Of a DNA stretch of 64,000 nucleotides, positions 1 through 7,568 are shown piece after piece. The DNA comes from Comamonas sp. (lineage in GTDB: Bacteria > Pseudomonadota > Gammaproteobacteria > Burkholderiales > Burkholderiaceae_C): NCBI GenBank assembly GCA_028690035.1, contig JAQVCA010000001.1, forward strand, positions 405,940 through 469,939. The letters are read 5' to 3'. A program made the position numbers and the translations under genes. Below the pieces are notes generated by a model. The model did no database searches, was not told the DNA's origin, and was given only the letters and a program-made list of their open reading frames with translations. Numbering within the stretch: position 1 is the first letter of the stretch; each line of letters begins with the position of its first letter.

Positions 1-159
1 TTGCACCATCAGGTCGAAAAAGCTGTCCACCACCTGCTTGGCATCGCGCTTGTTCATACCCAGCTGCTCAAACAGCATATCCACCAGCTCGGCTTTGGTC
101 AGCGCAGCTTCTTCCAAGCCTTGTGCAGCGGGGAGCGATGTTTCGGTCATAGTGGACAT
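1..159 (-). CDS. ihfA: Integration host factor alpha subunit, N-terminal part (cut by window edge)
   Basis: Only the first 53 codons are inside the window. The translation starts [20 protein letters not shown] and continues with [20 protein letters not shown], the usual N-terminal helices of the HU/IHF fold. IHF-alpha pairs with IHF-beta to bend DNA in transcription, recombination and replication. The start is the ATG three bases past the pheT stop, so the gene is co-transcribed with pheST as in Escherichia coli; a second in-frame ATG lies three codons further in. The short extension before TKAELV is usual for burkholderial IhfA. Family certain, exact start fairly sure. Confidence 0.93.
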
Positions 160-162
160 CCG

Positions 163-2607
163 TTATCCACGCAGCTTGGCGCCCAAGGCACTGGCCAGCG
201 CAGCAATGGCTGCCTGCATGGCAGCATCAATTTGCGCATCGGTCAAGGCTTCGGTGCCACTGCCAAGCGTCAGACGCACGGCCAGACTTTTCTCGTCCTG
301 CGCCAAAGCACCAGGCGCAGCCTGCTCGCCCGCTTTGAGTTTTTTGGGGCGGAATACATCGAACAGCACCGCCGTGCGCAGCTGCGGCACCGCAGCGTGC
401 AGCACCTCCATCACCTGCGCATGGGTCACCGCCTCTTTCACGACCACGGCAATGTCGCGCTCCACCAGCTGGTGCTTGGGCACCGGCTGGAACTGGGGCA
501 CCGCACGCCGCTGTACCGCATCCAGCTCCAACTCGAACAACACCGGGGCCTGGGGCAAATCCCACTGCTGACGCCATTGGGGATGCAACTCCCCCACGTA
601 GCCGATGGCCTTGCCGCCCACCAGCACACGTGCGCAGCGACCAGGGTGCATGGCCGGGTGCTGCGCAGGCTCAAAAACAGCGGCCAGAGGGGCCAACAAA
701 GCCTCTACGTCGCCCTTGGCATCGTAAAAGTCGACCTTGCTTTCTGTGCGCCCCCACTGCAACTGCTCGGCTGCACCATAGGCCAGCCCGGCCACGCGCA
801 TCGGCTGGTGAAAGCCCTGCACCGTCGTGTTGGAGTTGGCGACCGACGCATCTTTCAAGAACACACGTCCCAGCTCAAACACGCGCACGCGCGCTGCCTT
901 GCGATCCAGATTGAACTTCAACACCTGCAGCAACGACCCCAGCAGAGACGAGCGCATCACACTCAAGTGGCTGGCAATCGGGTTGAGCAACTGCACCGGC
1001 TGGGGATTGCCCGCCAGGGTGTGCTCCCACTGCTCCTGCACGAAACTGAAGTTGATCGTTTCTTGGTAGCCCAGACCCGCCAGCGCATGGCGCACGGCAA
1101 ACGCACTGCGACGGTTTTCTGCGCCCAGTTTGGGGGCAATCGGCGCCAGCGGCTTGGTGGCAGGCAGGTTTTCATAGCCCACCATGCGCGCCACCTCTTC
1201 GATCAAGTCCTCTTCCAGGTTGATGTCAAAACGCAACGTCGGCGCCGTCACTTCCAGCACACCATCGGCCACAGCCTTGGCAGGCAGACCCAGACCATTC
1301 AACGCATCCAGGCATTGTTGCTGCGTCACCGGCATACCAATCACCTTGGCAGCACGCGCTACGCGCAGCTGCACCTGCTTGGGCGCTGGCATATTGGGCT
1401 GCAGATCGGTGATCGGCCCGCACGCAGTGTGCGGCGTGCCACAAATTTGCAGCACCAGCTCGGTAATGCGCTCCAGCACCTGCACCGTCTGGGCAGGATC
1501 GACGCCGCGTTCAAAACGGTGCCCCGCATCGGTCGAAAAATTGAAGCGGCGCGAGCGCCCGGCTACCGCTTTGGGCCACCAGAAAGCGGCCTCAATATAG
1601 ATATTCTGCGTGCCATCGGATACCGCCGTCGCAGCGCCGCCCATGATGCCGGCCAGCGACTCCAGCCCACGCCCATCGGCAATCACGCCCACCTGCTCAT
1701 CCACGATCACCGTGTTGCCATTGAGCAGCTCCAGCTGCTCGCCACCCTTGCCCCAGCCCACTTGCAAACCACCGCTGATCTTGTCCAGATCAAAAATATG
1801 CGAAGGCTGGCCCAGTTCAAACATCACATAGTTAGAGATGTCCACCAAAGGCGACACGGTACGCTGACCACAGCGCGCCAGACGATCGGCCATCCACTGC
1901 GGCGTGGCCACCTGCGTATTCACACCGCGCACGATGCGCCCCGAAAAACGCCCGCACAGGTCAGGTGCCAGCACCTGGACGGGCAGCACGTCTGCGCTGG
2001 CGACAGGGTTGGCAGGGAATGCCAGAGGTTTCAGCGGCACACCGGTCAGGGCCGACAGCTCGCGCGCAATGCCGTACACGCTCAGGCAGTGGGCCAGATT
2101 GGGCGTGAGCTTGAGGGTGAACAGCGTATCGTCCAGATTCAGGTACTGGCGAATGTTCTGGCCCAGCGGCGCATCCAAGGGCAGCTCCAGCAGACCACCG
2201 TGGTCGTCGGCAATACCCAGCTCCTTGGCCGAGCACAACATGCCAAAGCTTTGCACACCGCGCAGCTTGCCCACCTTGATCTGGAACGGTTTGCCATCGG
2301 GGCCCGGCGGCAACAACGCCCCCACCGTGGCACACGGCACACGAATGCCCACGCGCGCATTGGGCGCACCGCACACGATATTGAGCAGCTCTGGGCCACC
2401 GACATCCACTTGGCACACACGCAAGCGATCGGCATCGGGGTGCTGCACCGCCTCTTTGATCTCACCGACCACAATGCCGGTAAAGGGCGGGGCCACAGGC
2501 TCCAGCTCTTCCACCTCCAAACCAGCCATAGTCAAAGTATCGGCCAGCTCCTGGGTAGAGAGCGCAGGGTTGCAGTACTGACGCAACCAAGATTCGGGAA
2601 ATTGCAT
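163..2607 (-). CDS. pheT: Phenylalanine-tRNA ligase beta subunit
   Basis: Full-length 814-residue PheT, which with PheS forms the cytoplasmic alpha2beta2 enzyme that charges tRNA-Phe. It begins MQFPESWLRQYCNPALSTQE. The order seen fits the family: N-terminal EMAP-like tRNA-binding domain (about 40-155), B3/B4 editing region (about 210-380), B5 domain (about 400-480), the catalytic-like core (from about 490), and a C-terminal ferredoxin-fold anticodon-binding domain ending LASALGAKLRG. It lies between pheS and ihfA. The 179-bp gap from pheS is long for this operon and is mostly filled by an inserted repeat. Confidence 0.97.
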   Translation of the reverse strand: MQFPESWLRQYCNPALSTQELADTLTMAGLEVEELEPVAPPFTGIVVGEIKEAVQHPDADRLRVCQVDVGGPELLNIVCGAPNARVGIRVPCATVGALLPPGPDGKPFQIKVGKLRGVQSFGMLCSAKELGIADDHGGLLELPLDAPLGQNIRQYLNLDDTLFTLKLTPNLAHCLSVYGIARELSALTGVPLKPLAFPANPVASADVLPVQVLAPDLCGRFSGRIVRGVNTQVATPQWMADRLARCGQRTVSPLVDISNYVMFELGQPSHIFDLDKISGGLQVGWGKGGEQLELLNGNTVIVDEQVGVIADGRGLESLAGIMGGAATAVSDGTQNIYIEAAFWWPKAVAGRSRRFNFSTDAGHRFERGVDPAQTVQVLERITELVLQICGTPHTACGPITDLQPNMPAPKQVQLRVARAAKVIGMPVTQQQCLDALNGLGLPAKAVADGVLEVTAPTLRFDINLEEDLIEEVARMVGYENLPATKPLAPIAPKLGAENRRSAFAVRHALAGLGYQETINFSFVQEQWEHTLAGNPQPVQLLNPIASHLSVMRSSLLGSLLQVLKFNLDRKAARVRVFELGRVFLKDASVANSNTTVQGFHQPMRVAGLAYGAAEQLQWGRTESKVDFYDAKGDVEALLAPLAAVFEPAQHPAMHPGRCARVLVGGKAIGYVGELHPQWRQQWDLPQAPVLFELELDAVQRRAVPQFQPVPKHQLVERDIAVVVKEAVTHAQVMEVLHAAVPQLRTAVLFDVFRPKKLKAGEQAAPGALAQDEKSLAVRLTLGSGTEALTDAQIDAAMQAAIAALASALGAKLRG

Positions 2608-2670
2608 GGTGATTCCATCTCAGGCAACACGCTGGGCCACCTGTGGCCCGGGCATTGCTATTTAAAAAAA

Positions 2671-2748
2671 GAGCTGCTCGCGCTTTACAGACAAGGTTTT
2701 CAGAAAACATTCATTATGAAAACTACGTGGAATAAGCGGTATCAGCTC
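2671..2748. repeat. Dispersed Comamonadaceae-type inverted-arm repeat, copy A
   Basis: Two imperfect 17-base arms, GAGCTGCTCGCGCTTTA at 2671-2687 and ATAAGCGGTATCAGCTC at 2732-2748, flank an AT-richer core containing ACAAGG and TTTTCAGA. The same left arm and core motif recur at 22176. It occupies most of the pheS-pheT spacer, so it is transcribed with the operon and could fold into a stem-loop between the two cistrons. The element carries no gene. Whether it changes the pheS:pheT ratio is unknown. Confidence 0.7.
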
Positions 2749-2786
2749 ACTTTTTAGACATTCATTGTTCTTTGAAGGCGCCGCAC

Positions 2787-3839
2787 TTACTGGAACTGCG
2801 ACAAAAAGCGAATATCGCCATCAAAGAACAGGCGCAAATCGTTCACGCCATAGCGCAGCATAGTCAGGCGGTCTGGCCCCATTCCAAAAGCAAAACCGAT
2901 GTAGCGCTCAGGATCCAGGCCCATATTGCGCACCACGTTGGGGTGGACTTGGCCGCTACCCGCCACTTCCAGCCACTTGCCCGCCAGCGGGCCGCTTTGG
3001 AACTGGATGTCCACTTCAGCCGAAGGCTCGGTGAACGGGAAAAAGCTTGGGCGAAAGCGCAGCACCAAGTCTTCGCTTTCAAAAAACGTCTTGCAAAAGT
3101 CGGTAAATACGACCTTCAAATCTTTAAAACTCACGTTCTCGCCAATCCACAGGCCTTCGCACTGGTGGAACATGGGCGAGTGTGTGGCGTCCGAGTCCAC
3201 GCGGTACGTGCGCCCGGGGGCGATCACACGAATCTCAGGCATGCTTTGCCCAGCATCAAGTAGGCTGCGATAGCGCTGCACATGCTGCACGGCATGGCGC
3301 ACCTGCATCGGACTGGTGTGCGTGCGCAGCAAATTGGGCGCTTCGGGCGTACCGCCTTCGACGTAAAAGGTGTCGTGCATCGAGCGCGCGGGATGGTCCT
3401 CGGGCGTGTTGAGTGCTGTGAAGTTGAACCAATCGGACTCGATCTCTGGGCCTTCGGCCACTTCAAAGCCCATGGAGGAAAAAATACCCTCAATGCGCTC
3501 CAGCGTCAGCGATACGGGATGCAGCCCCCCGGTGCCACGTCGGCGCCCGGGCAGACTCACGTCCAGGCGTTCGGCCTGCAATTGCTGCTGCAGCTCGGCA
3601 TCGGCCAAGGCTTGGCGACGTGCAGTCAAGGCAGCCTCAATGGCCTGCTTGGCCACATTGATGGCCGCACCACGCGTCTTTTTTTCTTGCACGCTGAGCT
3701 GGGCCATGCCCTTCATCAGCTCGGTCATCTTGCCGGATTTACCCAAAAACTGGGCTTTGGCGTTTTCCAGATCAGCAGGGGTGGCGGCCTGCGCAAACAG
3801 CTGCTGCGCGCTGGCAACCAGAGAATCCAACTCGTTCAT
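2787..3839 (-). CDS. pheS: Phenylalanine-tRNA ligase alpha subunit
   Basis: 350-residue catalytic subunit of phenylalanyl-tRNA synthetase. It starts [20 protein letters not shown], with an N-terminal coiled-coil arm (about 1-85) that binds tRNA, followed by the class II core: motif 2 in the stretch [15 protein letters not shown] and motif 3 near [15 protein letters not shown] close to the C-terminus. I chose this ATG over a GTG ten codons upstream because MNELD is the usual N-terminus and AAAGAG lies at ribosome-binding distance. It is downstream of rplT and upstream of pheT. Confidence 0.97.
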
Positions 3840-3868
3840 AACGACTCTTTTTCGAGCTTTAAATAACA

Positions 3869-3901
3869 CAAGGGCTAGTGCCTTTTCAAGCCCTAGCCCT
3901 T
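3869..3901 (-). promoter_or_regulatory. Inverted repeat in the rplT-pheS spacer
   Basis: AAGGGCTAG and CTAGCCCTT form a perfect 9-bp stem around a 15-base loop, ahead of the pheS start. In Escherichia coli this position holds the pheM leader and attenuator. Here no U-run follows the stem on the transcribed strand and I see no Phe-rich peptide, so it is not a classic attenuator. It could be an RNA processing or stabilising stem, or a degenerate copy of the dispersed repeat family. Confidence 0.45.
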
Positions 3902-3953
3902 GCTGATAGTGCGCCAGAAGCTACTAAATCAATAGTAACTACCGATCGTGAAC

Positions 3954-4313
3954 TCAAGCAGCCAGCTTGGCCTTGACTTGCTCCACGATGCTGCTGAAGG
4001 CAGCCTTGTCATGCACAGCAATATCGGCCAGCATCTTGCGGTCGATCTCGATGGCAGCCTTCTTCAGACCGTTGGTGAACTGGCTGTAGGTCAGGCCAAG
4101 TTCACGTGCAGCAGCGTTGATACGAGTGATCCACAGACGGCGGAACACGCGCTTCTTGTTGCGGCGGTCACGGTAAGCGTATTGACCAGCCTTCATCACC
4201 GCCTGTTTGGCGACGCGGAAGACATTACCGCGGCGACCGCGGAAACCCTTAGCTTGGGCAAGAACTTTTTTGTGACGGGCGCGGGCCGTTACACCACGTT
4301 TGACGCGAGGCAT
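3954..4313 (-). CDS. rplT: 50S ribosomal protein L20
   Basis: 119-residue L20, starting [20 protein letters not shown], with the very basic N-terminal extension that threads into 23S rRNA and the conserved [20 protein letters not shown] region. L20 is an early assembly protein and, in enterobacteria, the repressor of rpmI-rplT translation. It lies 27 bp after rpmI in the usual order. The length matches the family. Confidence 0.98.
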
Positions 4314-4340
4314 GTGTTTACTCCTTGTTCGTCAGTGAAA

Positions 4341-4544
4341 TTACAGCCCAGCCATGGGCAGCATCTTGGCAATAGAGCCCAGATCGGCCTCATGCACGTT
4401 CACGATGCCACGCAGGTTACGCTTGTTCTTGGTGGTCTTCTTGGTCAAGATGTGACGCTTGAAGGCCTGACCGCGCTTAACGGTGCCACCGGGACGAACG
4501 CGAAAACGTTTCTTCGCGCTGCTCTTGGTTTTCATTTTGGGCAT
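4341..4544 (-). CDS. rpmI: 50S ribosomal protein L35
   Basis: 67-residue L35, starting [20 protein letters not shown], highly basic and of standard length. It lies between infC and rplT as in most bacteria. The hairpins just upstream (4620-4676) sit where the L20 autoregulatory operator is found in other bacteria. Confidence 0.98.
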
Positions 4545-4619
4545 TGGAATGCTCCTGTTACTTGTGCTCGCAAGGCGTTTGCCACCACAGCAAAACTTGT
4601 TGGCCCCGAGACACTTTTC

Positions 4620-4676
4620 ATTGCTGGGACACTAGGCCAGCAATACAAAAGCTTGCCGAGTCAACCCGGCAAGCTT
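4620..4676 (-). promoter_or_regulatory. Two consecutive stem-loops in the infC-rpmI spacer, possible L20 operator or attenuator
   Basis: Read on the transcribed strand, the first stem is AAGCTTGCCG paired with CGGCAAGCTT (4649-4676, 10 bp perfect, 8-base loop) followed by TTTTG. The second is ATTGCTGG paired with CCAGCAAT (4620-4644, 8 bp). The first resembles a weak intrinsic terminator. The position matches the leader through which L20 represses rpmI-rplT in enterobacteria and Bacillus (established for those groups). Assigning that role here is inference. Confidence 0.5.
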
Positions 4677-4692
4677 CTGCATGGGGGGAAAA

Positions 4693-5289
4693 TTATTCCG
4701 TTTTTTCAGCAGTGGTTGCGTCAGCAGCTTTTGTCACACTAGGCTTTTTACGCGCTGGCGCGATCATCATGATCATCTGGCGGCCTTCTAGCTTGGGGAA
4801 CTGCTCCACTTGAATGCTGTCTGCCAAGTCGTCGCGCAAGCGGTTGAGCAAATCCAGACCCAGTTGCTGGTGCGTGATTTCACGGCCACGGAAGCGAAGC
4901 GTAATTTTACACTTATCGCCCTCCGCTAGGAAGCGTCGGATATTGCGCAGCTTGATGTTGTAGTCACCATCGTCGGTACCAGGACGGAATTTCACTTCCT
5001 TGATTTCGACTACCGTCTGCTTGGCCTTGGCCTCTGCAGCTTTTTTCTGCTCTTGGTACTTGAACTTACCGTAGTCCATCAGCCGACACACAGGCGGGCT
5101 GGCGGTGGCAGCAATCTCGACCAAATCTACGTCCAACTCGCCAGCAGCACGCAGCGCCTCTTGCAAGGAAACAATGCCTAAAGGCTCATTATCTGGACCA
5201 GATAGACGCACTTCAGGCGCCGTAATCTCACGGTTCAGGCGGTGCTTGCGCTCTTCACGCTGGCGACGATCACGAAATTCTGTAGCTAT
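4693..5289 (-). CDS. infC: Translation initiation factor IF-3, with an apparent ATA start
   Basis: 198-residue IF-3, with N-domain signature [20 protein letters not shown] and a C-domain ending in an Ala/Thr-rich tail. It keeps initiator tRNA selection accurate and prevents subunit reassociation. An in-frame GTG exists three codons upstream, but the AGG of the ribosome-binding site abuts it with no spacing. The ATA codon at 5287-5289 has AGGG eight bases ahead, and the following residues ATEFRDRR match the usual N-terminus. Rare AUU/AUC/AUA starts in infC let IF-3 repress its own translation. The gene is third-cistron distance from thrS, as in the conserved operon. Confidence 0.92.
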
Positions 5290-5312
5290 GGCTCTCACCC
5301 TAAAATCAAAAC

Positions 5313-5329
5313 GCTACGAAAAGCGTAGC
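5313..5329 (-). promoter_or_regulatory. Short hairpin just ahead of infC
   Basis: GCTACG and CGTAGC form a perfect 6-bp stem with a 5-base loop. On the transcribed strand it is followed by GTTTTGATTTT, then the infC ribosome-binding site. It could be a weak terminator or attenuator between thrS and infC, or a structure that tunes infC initiation. The sequence alone does not decide. Confidence 0.4.
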
Positions 5330-5387
5330 TGCTTGGATGCACGGCATGCGGCCATCAGACCGCACTGTGCTGGATCTCTTTCAACGT

Positions 5388-7307
5388 CTAGACTTTGGTA
5401 GCGATGTCGTTGGTCAGCAATTCAATGAATGCATCCACCCCCATCACACCCAGATCTTTATTACCCCGAGCACGCACCGCAACGGTGCCAGCTGCTTTCT
5501 CTTTGTCGCCTGCGACCAAGATATAAGGTAGTTTCTGCAATGCATGCTCTCGTATTTTATACGTTATCTTCTCATTGCGCAGATCAGCAGACACCTTCAA
5601 GGCGTGATAAGGCAAGGATTTTTGCACTTTTGCCACAACTTCTTGCACATAGTCAGACTGGGCGTCGGTGATGTTAAGGATAGCCACCTGCTGCGGAGCA
5701 AGCCACACGGGTAACGCCCCTGCATGCTGCTCCATCAAGATGCCGATAAAGCGCTCCATCGACCCGACAATAGCCCGGTGCAGCATCACCGGACGGTGGC
5801 GATTCCCATCCTCACCGACGTACTCGGCATCCAGGCGCTCAGGCATGGAAAAATCCACCTGAATCGTGCCACACTGCCATTGACGCCCCAAAGCATCCTT
5901 CAGGGTGTATTCAATTTTCGGCCCGTAAAAAGCACCATCGCCATCGGCTACAAGGTACTCACATCCCGAGGTTTTCAGGCTATCGAACAAAGCAGCCTCT
6001 GCCTTGTCCCAACTTTCGTCCGAGCCAATGCGTGCCTCTGGACGTGTCGCCACCTTGTAGATGATGTCAGTAAAGCCAAAATCTTGGTACACCTGTTGCA
6101 GCAGGCGCGTAAAGTTAAGCACCTCCTGCTGAATCTGGTCTTCGGTACAGAAAATGTGACCATCATCCTGCGTGAAGGCGCGCACGCGCATGATGCCGTG
6201 CAACCCACCCGTAGGTTCATTGCGATGACACTGACCAAACTCACCCATGCGCAGAGGCAGCTCACGGTAGCTCTTGATTCCTTGCTTGAATATCAGAATA
6301 TGGCCCGGACAGTTCATGGGCTTGAGCGCAAAGTCGTGCTTTTCACTCTCTGTGGTGAACATGTTGTCACGGTACTTATCCCAGTGGCCAGTCTTCTCCC
6401 ACAGGGTGCGATCCAAAATTTGTGGTGCTTTGACTTCTTGGTACCCATTGTCGCGGTACACACGACGCATGTACTGCTCTACTTCTTGCCAAATGCGCCA
6501 GCCCTTGGGATGCCAAAACACGGTACCAGGCGAGCATTCATCAATGTGAAATAGATCCAGTTCACGCCCAAGTCGGCGGTGATCGCGTTTTTCGGCCTCT
6601 TCAATACGTGTGATATAGGCCTGCAGATCCTTTTTCTCAGCCCAGGCTGTGCCATACACACGCTGCAGTTGTTCATTTTTAGCATCGCCGCGCCAGTAAG
6701 CACCTGCCAACTTGGTGAGCTTAAACACCTTCAAGAAACGGGTGTTGGGCACATGAGGACCACGACACATGTCCACATACTCTTGGTGGTAGTAAAGGCC
6801 CATCTGTGTTTCATTGGGCATATCTTCCACCAAGCGCAGTTTGTAGTCTTCACCTCGATTCTGGAAGAGCTCGATCACCTGGGCACGAGGTGTCATCTTC
6901 TTGATGACATCGTAGTCCTGCGCGATCAATTCTTTCATGCGTGCCTCAATGGCAGCCACATCATCTGGGGTGAAAGGACGCTCGTAGGCGATGTCGTAGT
7001 AAAAGCCCTCTTCAATGACCGGACCAATCACCATCTTGGCTGTTGGGTACAGCTGCTTCACAGCATGCCCCACCAAGTGGGCACAAGAATGGCGAATGAT
7101 CTCTACACCTTCTGGATCTTTGGGCGTGATGATCTGCAGTCGCGCATCGCGCTCAATTACATCGCAGGCATCCACCAAGCGACCATTGACACGGCCTGCC
7201 ACGGTATTTTTCGCGAGGCCAGCACCGATGGACTGAGCCACTTGAAGCACGGTCACTGGGCCGTCGAACTCGCGCAAAGAACCATCGGGAAGGGTAATTT
7301 TCAACAT
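5388..7307 (-). CDS. thrS: Threonine-tRNA ligase
   Basis: 639-residue ThrRS. An N-terminal TGS domain (about 1-62, starting [16 protein letters not shown]) is followed by the editing domain with the [10 protein letters not shown] zinc/hydrolysis motif (about 75-85), the class II catalytic core with the [10 protein letters not shown] motif (about 333-342), and an anticodon-binding C-terminus ending [10 protein letters not shown]. It charges tRNA-Thr in the cytoplasm and heads the thrS-infC-rpmI-rplT-pheST-ihfA operon. Its leader (7348-7496) contains a Thr-codon-rich peptide and competing hairpins ending in an intrinsic terminator, so transcription is probably controlled by threonyl-tRNA charging. 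Confidence 0.98.
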
Positions 7308-7347
7308 AGCTAACTTTTATTCAAAAAAAGAGGGCCGCGCGAGCAAC

Positions 7348-7454
7348 AAAAAAGCGCGGAACCAGTCCGCGCCGAGCAAAGCAACAAAAATCTATCGTAC
7401 AAGCGCGAACGTACAGGCTTTAGCAGCCAGTGGAGGTAGTTGGTGTCGTTCGCG
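7348..7454 (-). promoter_or_regulatory. Ribosome-mediated transcription attenuator of thrS
   Basis: Transcribed-strand segments: 1, CGCGAACG (7454-7447, inside the leader peptide); 2, CGTTCGCGC (7411-7403); 3, GCGCGGA (7372-7366); 4, TCCGCGC (7360-7354), followed by six T. Segments 1:2 pair perfectly over 8 bp; 2:3 pair over 7 bp with one G-U (antiterminator); 3:4 form a perfect 7-bp terminator stem. A ribosome finishing the leader peptide would cover segment 2 and let 3:4 terminate; one stalled on Thr codons would cover segment 1 and free segment 2. This is the trp/thr attenuation logic. The terminator ends 40 bp before thrS. A TAGAAT -10-like box lies at 7507-7512. Confidence 0.85.
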
Positions 7455-7461
7455 GTGTCAT
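7420..7461 (-). CDS. Threonine-rich leader peptide of thrS
   Basis: The 13-codon frame reads MTPRTTPTTSTGC, with six threonines using ACA, ACG, ACT and ACC, then TAA. It ends nine bases before antiterminator segment 2 of the thrS attenuator, the spacing expected for a sensor peptide. Its ATG overlaps the TGA of an upstream 12-codon mini-frame (start 7496, MHLQGRERHHRL) in an ATGA arrangement, suggesting coupling. The ribosome-binding site is weak: AAAGG lies about 12 bases upstream. Too short for ordinary gene finding; the call rests on composition and position. Confidence 0.78.
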   Translation of the reverse strand: MTPRTTPTTSTGC

Positions 7462-7520
7462 AACCGATGATGCCTTTCTCGCCCTTGTAAATGCATGAAG
7501 CTACCGATTCTAACCGCAGC

Positions 7521-7555
7521 AAAAATCAAAGGGCTTGCCAGATTGCAAGCCCTTT
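7521..7555 (-). terminator. Intrinsic terminator downstream of aceA
   Basis: AAAGGGCTTGC and GCAAGCCCTTT form an 11-bp perfect stem with a 6-base loop, followed on the aceA-sense strand by GATTTTTG. It separates aceA from the thrS leader and probably ends aceA transcription. Confidence 0.8.
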
Positions 7556-7568
7556 TGGGTTCCTAGGC

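Follow-up and report, generated by a model that had tools for sequence, protein, structure and literature searches.

What controls the threonyl-tRNA synthetase gene, thrS, in Comamonas? In Escherichia coli, thrS is governed by a translational operator that mimics tRNA, and binding of ThrRS acts on translation. In Bacillus, a T-box, which binds tRNA directly, senses the charging of tRNA(Thr) and prevents termination before thrS. Both are textbook cases of synthetase control. The enteric thr, trp, his, pheA and pheST attenuators are built from a short ORF rich in cognate codons and four RNA segments (1-4), which form a terminator, an antiterminator and an anti-antiterminator. The question arises at a stretch of 64,000 nucleotides from a Comamonas genome (hereafter, the window), where a first-pass annotation placed a trp/thr-type attenuator with a Thr-rich leader peptide ahead of thrS and judged such an arrangement unusual.

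All elements of this putative attenuator are on the minus strand, in the gap between aceA (8947-7622) and thrS (7307-5388), the controlled gene, whose nearest named ThrS protein is that of Comamonas aquatica (89%). The gene names used here (aceA, thrS, infC, rpmI, rplT, pheS, and pheT) are presumed ones, given to the ORFs from the protein families to which we take them to belong. A consensus terminator scan places a separate terminator behind the upstream aceA (7555-7528), so the terminator in the leader need not belong to aceA, and its assignment to that gene was rejected. A candidate -10 element of the thrS promoter, TAGAAT, was read from the sequence at 7512-7507; the consensus promoter scan found no promoter ahead of the thrS leader, and a TARAAT string is present 5′ of the terminator in 63 of the 94 leader loci introduced below. 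A Shine-Dalgarno-like AGAAAGG (7479-7473) and, directly 5′ of the start codon, GGTT (7465-7462) precede the leader ORF, which runs from ATG to TAA (7461-7420) and encodes MTPRTTPTTSTGC. Six of its 13 residues are Thr, at codons 2, 5, 6, 8, 9, and 11, exactly the peptide and the position that the annotation had given. A further ORF, which starts upstream at ATG 7496 and runs into the leader start to end in the TGA of ATGA, was rejected because its frame is broken in relatives, among which the spacing from AAAGGCA to GGTT differs by one base.

Three mutually exclusive pairings and a run of six T had been claimed for this leader, and both the pairings and their coordinates are right. Segment 1, CGCGAACG (7454-7447), lies inside leader codons 3-5 and forms 8 bp with CGTTCGCG at 7411-7404 (1:2), in a hairpin that also contains an inner stem, GGCT/AGCC (7428-7425/7419-7416), enclosing the stop codon. 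Segment 2, CGTTCGCGC (7411-7403), is the partner of either segment 1 or segment 3. Its TTCGCGC (7409-7403) pairs with GCGCGGA (7372-7366) over 7 bp, one of them G-U, to give the antiterminator (2:3), and G7410-C7365 would make an eighth pair. Segment 3, GCGCGGAC (7372-7365), serves both as the 3′ arm of the antiterminator and as the 5′ arm of the terminator, in which GCGCGGA pairs with segment 4, TCCGCGC (7360-7354), followed by six T (7353-7348). This intrinsic terminator (3:4) was also found by the consensus scan. A second, weaker hairpin with a T-rich stretch (minus strand, 7347-7334) lies between the attenuator and thrS. The free-RNA fold in the window is 1:2 plus 3:4, the terminating form. 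Single-sequence folding energy is unremarkable (z -1.43, with 14 of 200 shuffles at least as stable), and the case against chance rests on conservation.

To this end thrS loci were collected by their ThrS proteins: L001, 80 named loci, 30 loci from 31 genomes of the genus, and 29 new ones from 200 genomes of the family, a total of 140. An upstream region, short in seven cases, was obtained for 139 of them. Six loci that were gamma-proteobacterial or similar (L038, L049, L051, L065, L072, and L079) were set aside, as were L088, where the start of thrS is missing, and L062, a betaproteobacterium without leader or terminator. An MTPRT leader is present in 94 of the remaining 125 distinct Burkholderiales loci (94 of 126 if L062 is included) and absent in 31, where distinct means not letter-for-letter identical, so that close relatives remain. 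The 94 leader loci, mutually non-identical in sequence, carry ATGACACCNCGNAC, and a Shine-Dalgarno-like string is found in 93 of them. Among the named taxa that have the leader are Comamonas aquatica, Delftia, Acidovorax, Variovorax, Hydrogenophaga, Ottowia, Roseateles, Rubrivivax, and Methylibium. Loci of both kinds occur in Polaromonas and Rhodoferax, and those of Limnohabitans, Hylemonella, Extensimonas, and Tepidimonas are without the leader.

Conservation of leader codons 2-5 is partly built into this set: the patterns by which leaders were collected leave almost no freedom at codon 2, prescribe most of codon 3 and part of codon 4, and set the first two bases of codon 5. In the set collected by ThrS protein, they left GGTT, the third base of codon 3, and every codon from the sixth on unconstrained. 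Across codons 6-11 of 96 non-redundant leaders, ACN makes up 176 of 573 codons in frame, versus 5 and 12 of 573 when either of the other frames is read. At codon 6, 68 of the 96 leaders have Thr, with all four third bases (A 20, G 27, C 19, T 2), the pattern that selection acting on the amino acid would leave. Thr remains common up to codon 11 (22 of 93 leaders) and is rare at codons 12 to 15 (4/88, 0/75, 1/33, and 2/24, respectively). A ribosome covers about 15 nt on either side of its P site and would thus mask segment 1 from codon 2 to about codon 11 and not beyond; Thr is scarce at just those positions where a stalled ribosome would give no further help. The end of the stop codon precedes segment 2 by a median of 8 nt (10-90% range: -1 to 11.6). 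Codon 5 is ACT in 82 of 94 leaders, and ACA at codon 2 and ACT at codon 5 are the two rarer Thr codons (10% and 8%, respectively, in 12 genes of the window), codon 2 being fixed by the selecting pattern. Leaders have between 2 and 7 Thr residues, and only Thr2 and Thr5 are kept in 15 of the 96, which counts against Thr sensing. The comparison with relatives proposed in the first-pass annotation thus bears out the conserved Thr codons, and by this measure of sequence the in-frame Thr codons of the leader are under selection.

Compensatory changes were sought in an alignment of 55 leaders (L057, L081, L069, L039, L047, and rows above 88% identity were left out). RNAalifold recovered only the terminator and a GGU/ACC mini-stem from this alignment, so 1:2 and 2:3 were defined by hand and then counted. 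For 1:2 and 3:4 together, 89.5% of cells are paired versus 84.5% in shuffles. Both-side changes appear in eight pairs (5.9 in shuffles, 11 of 500 of which reach eight) and in 46 cells (18.6, sd 3.2, in shuffles, none of 500 reaching 46). When the partners are shifted by 1-3 columns, pairing drops to 27-52%, a control that favours structures read off the same sequences. All five pairs of the inner stem around the stop codon show both-side changes, and terminator pair 159-167 has 16 double-change cells and 16 unpaired ones. The outer 1:2 stem has 87.3% of its cells paired. Of the 55 relatives, 18 have at least two breaks in that stem, 16 in the inner stem, and 9 in the 2:3 helix. The terminator stem has at most one break in all 55, and with the criteria used here a terminator lies between the leader ORF and thrS in 95 of 96 non-redundant leaders. 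An anti-antiterminator, a terminator and a reading frame enriched in Thr, three of the features expected of a leader-peptide attenuator, are present.

For the antiterminator, which is present in the window, 89.8% of 2:3 cells are paired among the 55 relatives (21-56% when slid), but covariation is not above shuffles (3 double-change cells versus 1.9; 142 of 500 as high), in part because segment 3 is nearly invariant. The 2:3 helix score is 18.2 for matched and 17.0 for mismatched species, a difference reached in 0 of 2000 permutations with relatedness still in, and 14.2 in shuffled regions. Duplex energies for 2:3 range from -11.9 to -24.0 kcal/mol over 94 leaders, values that alone are no test, as a best helix always exists. 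Segment 2 was misplaced in several duplex runs (e.g. L004, L068, L069, L116, and L120) and the terminator misassigned in L057; no general segment 2 could be defined in the distant families, where it is often unclear. The compensatory changes to be looked for in all three stems are thus clear in the stop-codon hairpin and in one terminator pair, and no more frequent than in shuffles in the antiterminator.

The switch itself was examined with a ribosome-state model, in which the transcript is cut before segment 4 and the bases covered by the ribosome are held single-stranded. For the window's own leader, the predicted probability of 2:3 pairing is 0.00 in free RNA, 0.97-0.98 with the ribosome stalled at Thr5 or Thr6, and 0.02 with the ribosome at the stop codon, a good fit to attenuation within this model. 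Across 75 family-type leaders (of 95, the ones numbered below L183), the median values are 0.18, 0.68, and 0.13 for the free, stalled, and stop states. Stalled-state pairing is above free-state pairing in 72 of the 75, with a margin of more than 0.3 in 35, and above stop-state pairing likewise in 72, with such a margin in 45. In a control with shuffled spacers, stalled pairing is 0.55 versus 0.60 in real leaders, stalled minus free is 0.13 versus 0.31, stalled minus stop is 0.20 versus 0.39, and both differences exceed 0.3 in 15% of shuffled versus 40% of real leaders. The model backs the attenuation mechanism moderately, over a sizeable shuffled background.

These data support the claim of trp/thr-type attenuation: Thr codons, terminator, and stop-codon hairpin all show conservation in the family and, in part, outside it. 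The leader is very probably a ribosome-mediated transcription attenuator of thrS that senses charged Thr-tRNA, as judged from comparative sequence evidence. We infer leader translation, stalling, termination, and read-through in the cell as follows. As RNA polymerase transcribes the leader, a ribosome would translate MTPRTT... If Thr-tRNA is plentiful, this ribosome would reach the stop codon and leave, segment 2 would be covered or paired with segment 1, and segments 3 and 4 would form the terminator, ending transcription ahead of thrS. With scarce Thr-tRNA, the ribosome would stall on a Thr codon among codons 2-11 and mask segment 1; segment 2 would then pair with segment 3, blocking the terminator, and thrS would be transcribed. 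The Comamonas leader shares its short Thr-rich ORF and segments 1-4 with the enteric attenuators and differs from them in the gene controlled, thrS, and in the bacterial group. The E. coli operator acts on the same gene, likewise through its leader mRNA, whereas the terminator and the Thr-rich ORF in Comamonas point to transcription and tRNA charging. The Bacillus T-box is alike in controlling termination by tRNA(Thr) charging, but the Comamonas window is without an Rfam T-box match. Indeed, Rfam gave no match in the window at gathering threshold and none in 7300-7560 at E<=1, and a T-box or a known Rfam amino-acid leader was rejected.

One feature has no place in this scheme. GGTT before the leader ATG is identical in 94 of 94 leaders and lies outside both the selecting pattern and the 1:2 and 2:3 pairings; codon 3 is CCG in 94 of 94, its third base being free in the selecting pattern. 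The GGU/ACC mini-stem is kept in 55 of 55 aligned leaders (RNAalifold) and is without covariation because it never varies. GGTT is a candidate protein-binding or initiation element. ThrRS might bind the leader near the invariant GGTTATGAnACCGC and thereby block leader translation or favour termination, an autogenous control acting alone or on top of Thr sensing; GGU is a Thr anticodon, and thrS control in E. coli works by tRNA mimicry. We consider this quite unlikely, as it leaves unaccounted for the in-frame Thr codons with free third bases at codons 6-11, as well as the other Thr-rich leaders that do not have GGTTATGACACC. A loop around GGTT that would resemble tRNA(Thr) was weighed by eye alone and is retained as a rival idea.

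The putative attenuator extends across most of the family sampled. A covariance model built from the 55 leaders, R1, matches 212 of 250 family genomes and 126 of 141 genera (E<=0.01), 193 of the genomes at E<=1e-7 and the other 19 more weakly; at least four of the weak matches (G095, G164, G217, and G218) are to genomes whose thrS locus is without the leader ORF. In 100 of 100 checked R1-matched family genomes, the leader lies 12-76 nt 5′ of thrS on the same strand. Most of the family genomes sampled thus have the element, which has no Rfam match. Within the window's own genome the leader scores 100.9 bits, with a weak opposite-strand match on the leader itself (12.5 bits). Further leader copies there were rejected, since the six other matches reach at most 21.6 bits and are not accompanied by a neighbouring thrS. 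A second thrS-like gene, 65% identical, occurs in one genome of the genus (G027:C1:4724871-4726745).

The 31 leaderless Burkholderiales loci bear on whether the ORF matters at all. A terminator-like hairpin precedes thrS in 26 of them, which would suit a purely structural leader, with an incidental ORF and hairpins that affect mRNA stability or a terminator that sets a low, constant level of thrS. An aceA-like stop codon is nearby in 16 of the 31; for 12 of these, no second hairpin is present, and the single one may therefore end aceA transcription; the other four (L030, L032, L044, and L117) have two hairpins. An incidental ORF would not be expected to show frame-specific Thr enrichment, free wobble bases, a Shine-Dalgarno-like string in 93 of 94 leaders, or a stop codon placed just before segment 2, and a structural leader is accordingly highly improbable. 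In 11 leaderless loci, the hairpin stem starts 25-29 nt past the TARAAT string, a layout that looks as if the sensor had been excised between promoter and terminator. These 11 (L013, L014, L017, L019, L029, L046, L050, L056, L058, L076, and L140) have hairpins of GCGCGG type, and several share a GCGTTT before the hairpin that, by eye, could pair with AAGCGC of the terminator; for many of these loci no other terminator follows aceA. A Polaromonas MAG (L074) shows a decayed motif about 150 nt 5′ of thrS, with the start codon lost and the terminator kept. Natural variants with few Thr codons, a lost leader, or a lost start codon are ready-made comparisons. We also considered, as an unlikely elaboration of the attenuator, a two-input switch in which the Thr codons read tRNA(Thr) charging and the invariant GGUUAUGAnACCGC around the start codon is recognized as an anticodon-like site by ThrRS or another factor, which would gate translation of the leader. 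Such a switch would integrate substrate and enzyme levels and could be the ancestral Burkholderiales control of thrS, reduced to promoter and terminator in lineages such as Limnohabitans.

Beyond the family the signal is thinner. R1 matches 55 of 300 order genomes (E<=1e-4), nine of them from the own family; the best 30 of the 55 were fetched as loci, the weaker ones being mostly left out. All 55 loci from the family and order R1 searches (L149-L203) have thrS just downstream. The pattern GGTTATGASACCGCNNAC matched 32 of 300 order genomes (nine from the own family) and its reversed control 0, with thrS downstream in 29 of 30 fetched loci, L232 being the exception. Spread beyond the order was rejected, as R1 matches 6 of 274 class genomes, three from the own family and three with no thrS within the fetched stretch. 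Leader peptides ahead of thrS in other families include MSFRTTTTGTLNQG (L261), MFKRTTTTRISR (L264), MFFPLARTTTRNFRPMSR (L240), MAPRTLTDTTSERR (L256), and MIMQLNRTTTTS (L294); the ORF listed for L262 ends in MFRTSTTTQS, and L249 encodes MSFRTTTTRER, with no terminator accepted by the criteria used. These peptides share mainly R-T and a T-rich core. An arrest of the ribosome by nascent MTPRT in response to a signal other than tRNA is scarcely credible given this diversity, the Leu or Pro in place of Arg4 in 6 of 96 leaders, and the very short five residues for nascent-chain arrest, even though MTPRT is almost invariant in R1-type leaders (partly through the collecting patterns).

Three leaders from genomes of 6.8-7.8 Mb (L207, L208, and L256) keep MTPRT or MAPRT with a wholly different terminator, GCGGCCCC...GGGGCCGC, and in these CCTCGA of the terminator is matched by a complementary TCGAGG 3′ of the stop codon.

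Regions upstream of thrS were also inspected in 60 of the 300 order genomes, as two sets of 30 with seven genera in common, the second comprising one genome per family picked before upstream inspection. A locus passed if an ORF before the terminator held at least three Thr within six codons. In the first set 20 loci have a terminator and 8 of these pass (2.5% in shuffles); in the second, 19 have a terminator and 7 pass (4.2% in shuffles). L252, L256, and L267 closely resemble the R1 type. Gamma-proteobacterial controls gave a terminator in 3 of 6 and no locus passing for Thr. Val passes as often as Thr (6 of 20 and 7 of 19), which counts against Thr sensing; Arg passes in 3 and 5, Leu in 3 and 1, and Gly in 0 and 3 loci of the first and second sets, respectively. 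The Val-rich peptides inspected are explained by a tRNA-Val gene read as an ORF, such a gene being upstream of thrS in at least 16 of the 30 first-set loci (ARAGORN on 16), and one Thr-passing locus, L270, also reads through a tRNA-Val-type stretch. Thr sensing of thrS may be order-wide, but the case for this is far weaker than that within the family. ARAGORN places a tRNA-Val gene (anticodon GAC) immediately 5′ of the leader region in L237, L239, L243, L245-L247, L249, L251-L253, L257, L258, L260-L262, and L264, so that leader and tRNA may share one transcript in these other Burkholderiales families.

How unusual is such a leader? The judgement in the first-pass annotation is only partly borne out. 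Excerpted text of the sources describes a classical attenuator on the pheST synthetase operon of gamma-proteobacteria and described or predicted leader-peptide attenuation of trpS and leuS in Streptomyces (PMC1262725), as well as of alaS, trpS, leuS, and thrS in Streptomyces lividans (PMC8079986). In bacilli, hisS paralogues have histidine leader peptides instead of a T-box (PMC2965389, excerpts); these are alike in applying leader-peptide attenuation to synthetase-family genes and differ in gene and phylum. The same source names E. coli ThrRS among self-regulating proteins, no more, and the string 'thrs' is absent from its main text. The closest precedent in these excerpts is thrL, proposed ahead of thrS in S. 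lividans TK24, which encodes MKRVRPFLETTPGFVPAR with two Thr and is transcribed leaderless; its authors saw no clear terminator (PMC8079986). It likewise places Thr codons before thrS, only two of them, as far as a comparison by description goes. Among the open-licence matches listed, in the portions of text they offer, no description of a Burkholderiales thrS leader was found, nor any reporter or starvation result for one, and within that literature the element is a probable, undescribed and unusually widespread instance of classical leader-peptide attenuation. If the mechanism holds, one large family, and perhaps much of the order, uses a third solution to thrS control.

The consequences may reach past thrS itself. 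Downstream on the minus strand (163..5298) lie ORFs that we take to be infC, rpmI, rplT, pheS, and pheT, and from gene order alone a co-regulated thrS-infC-rpmI-rplT-pheST operon is possible. Were that so, IF3 (the infC product), L35, L20, and PheRS may be tied to threonine supply. A terminator-like hairpin between thrS and infC (5329-5311, minus strand) argues against full coupling; terminator-like strings in 1-5450 number 11, versus 7.4 (sd 3.3) in shuffles.
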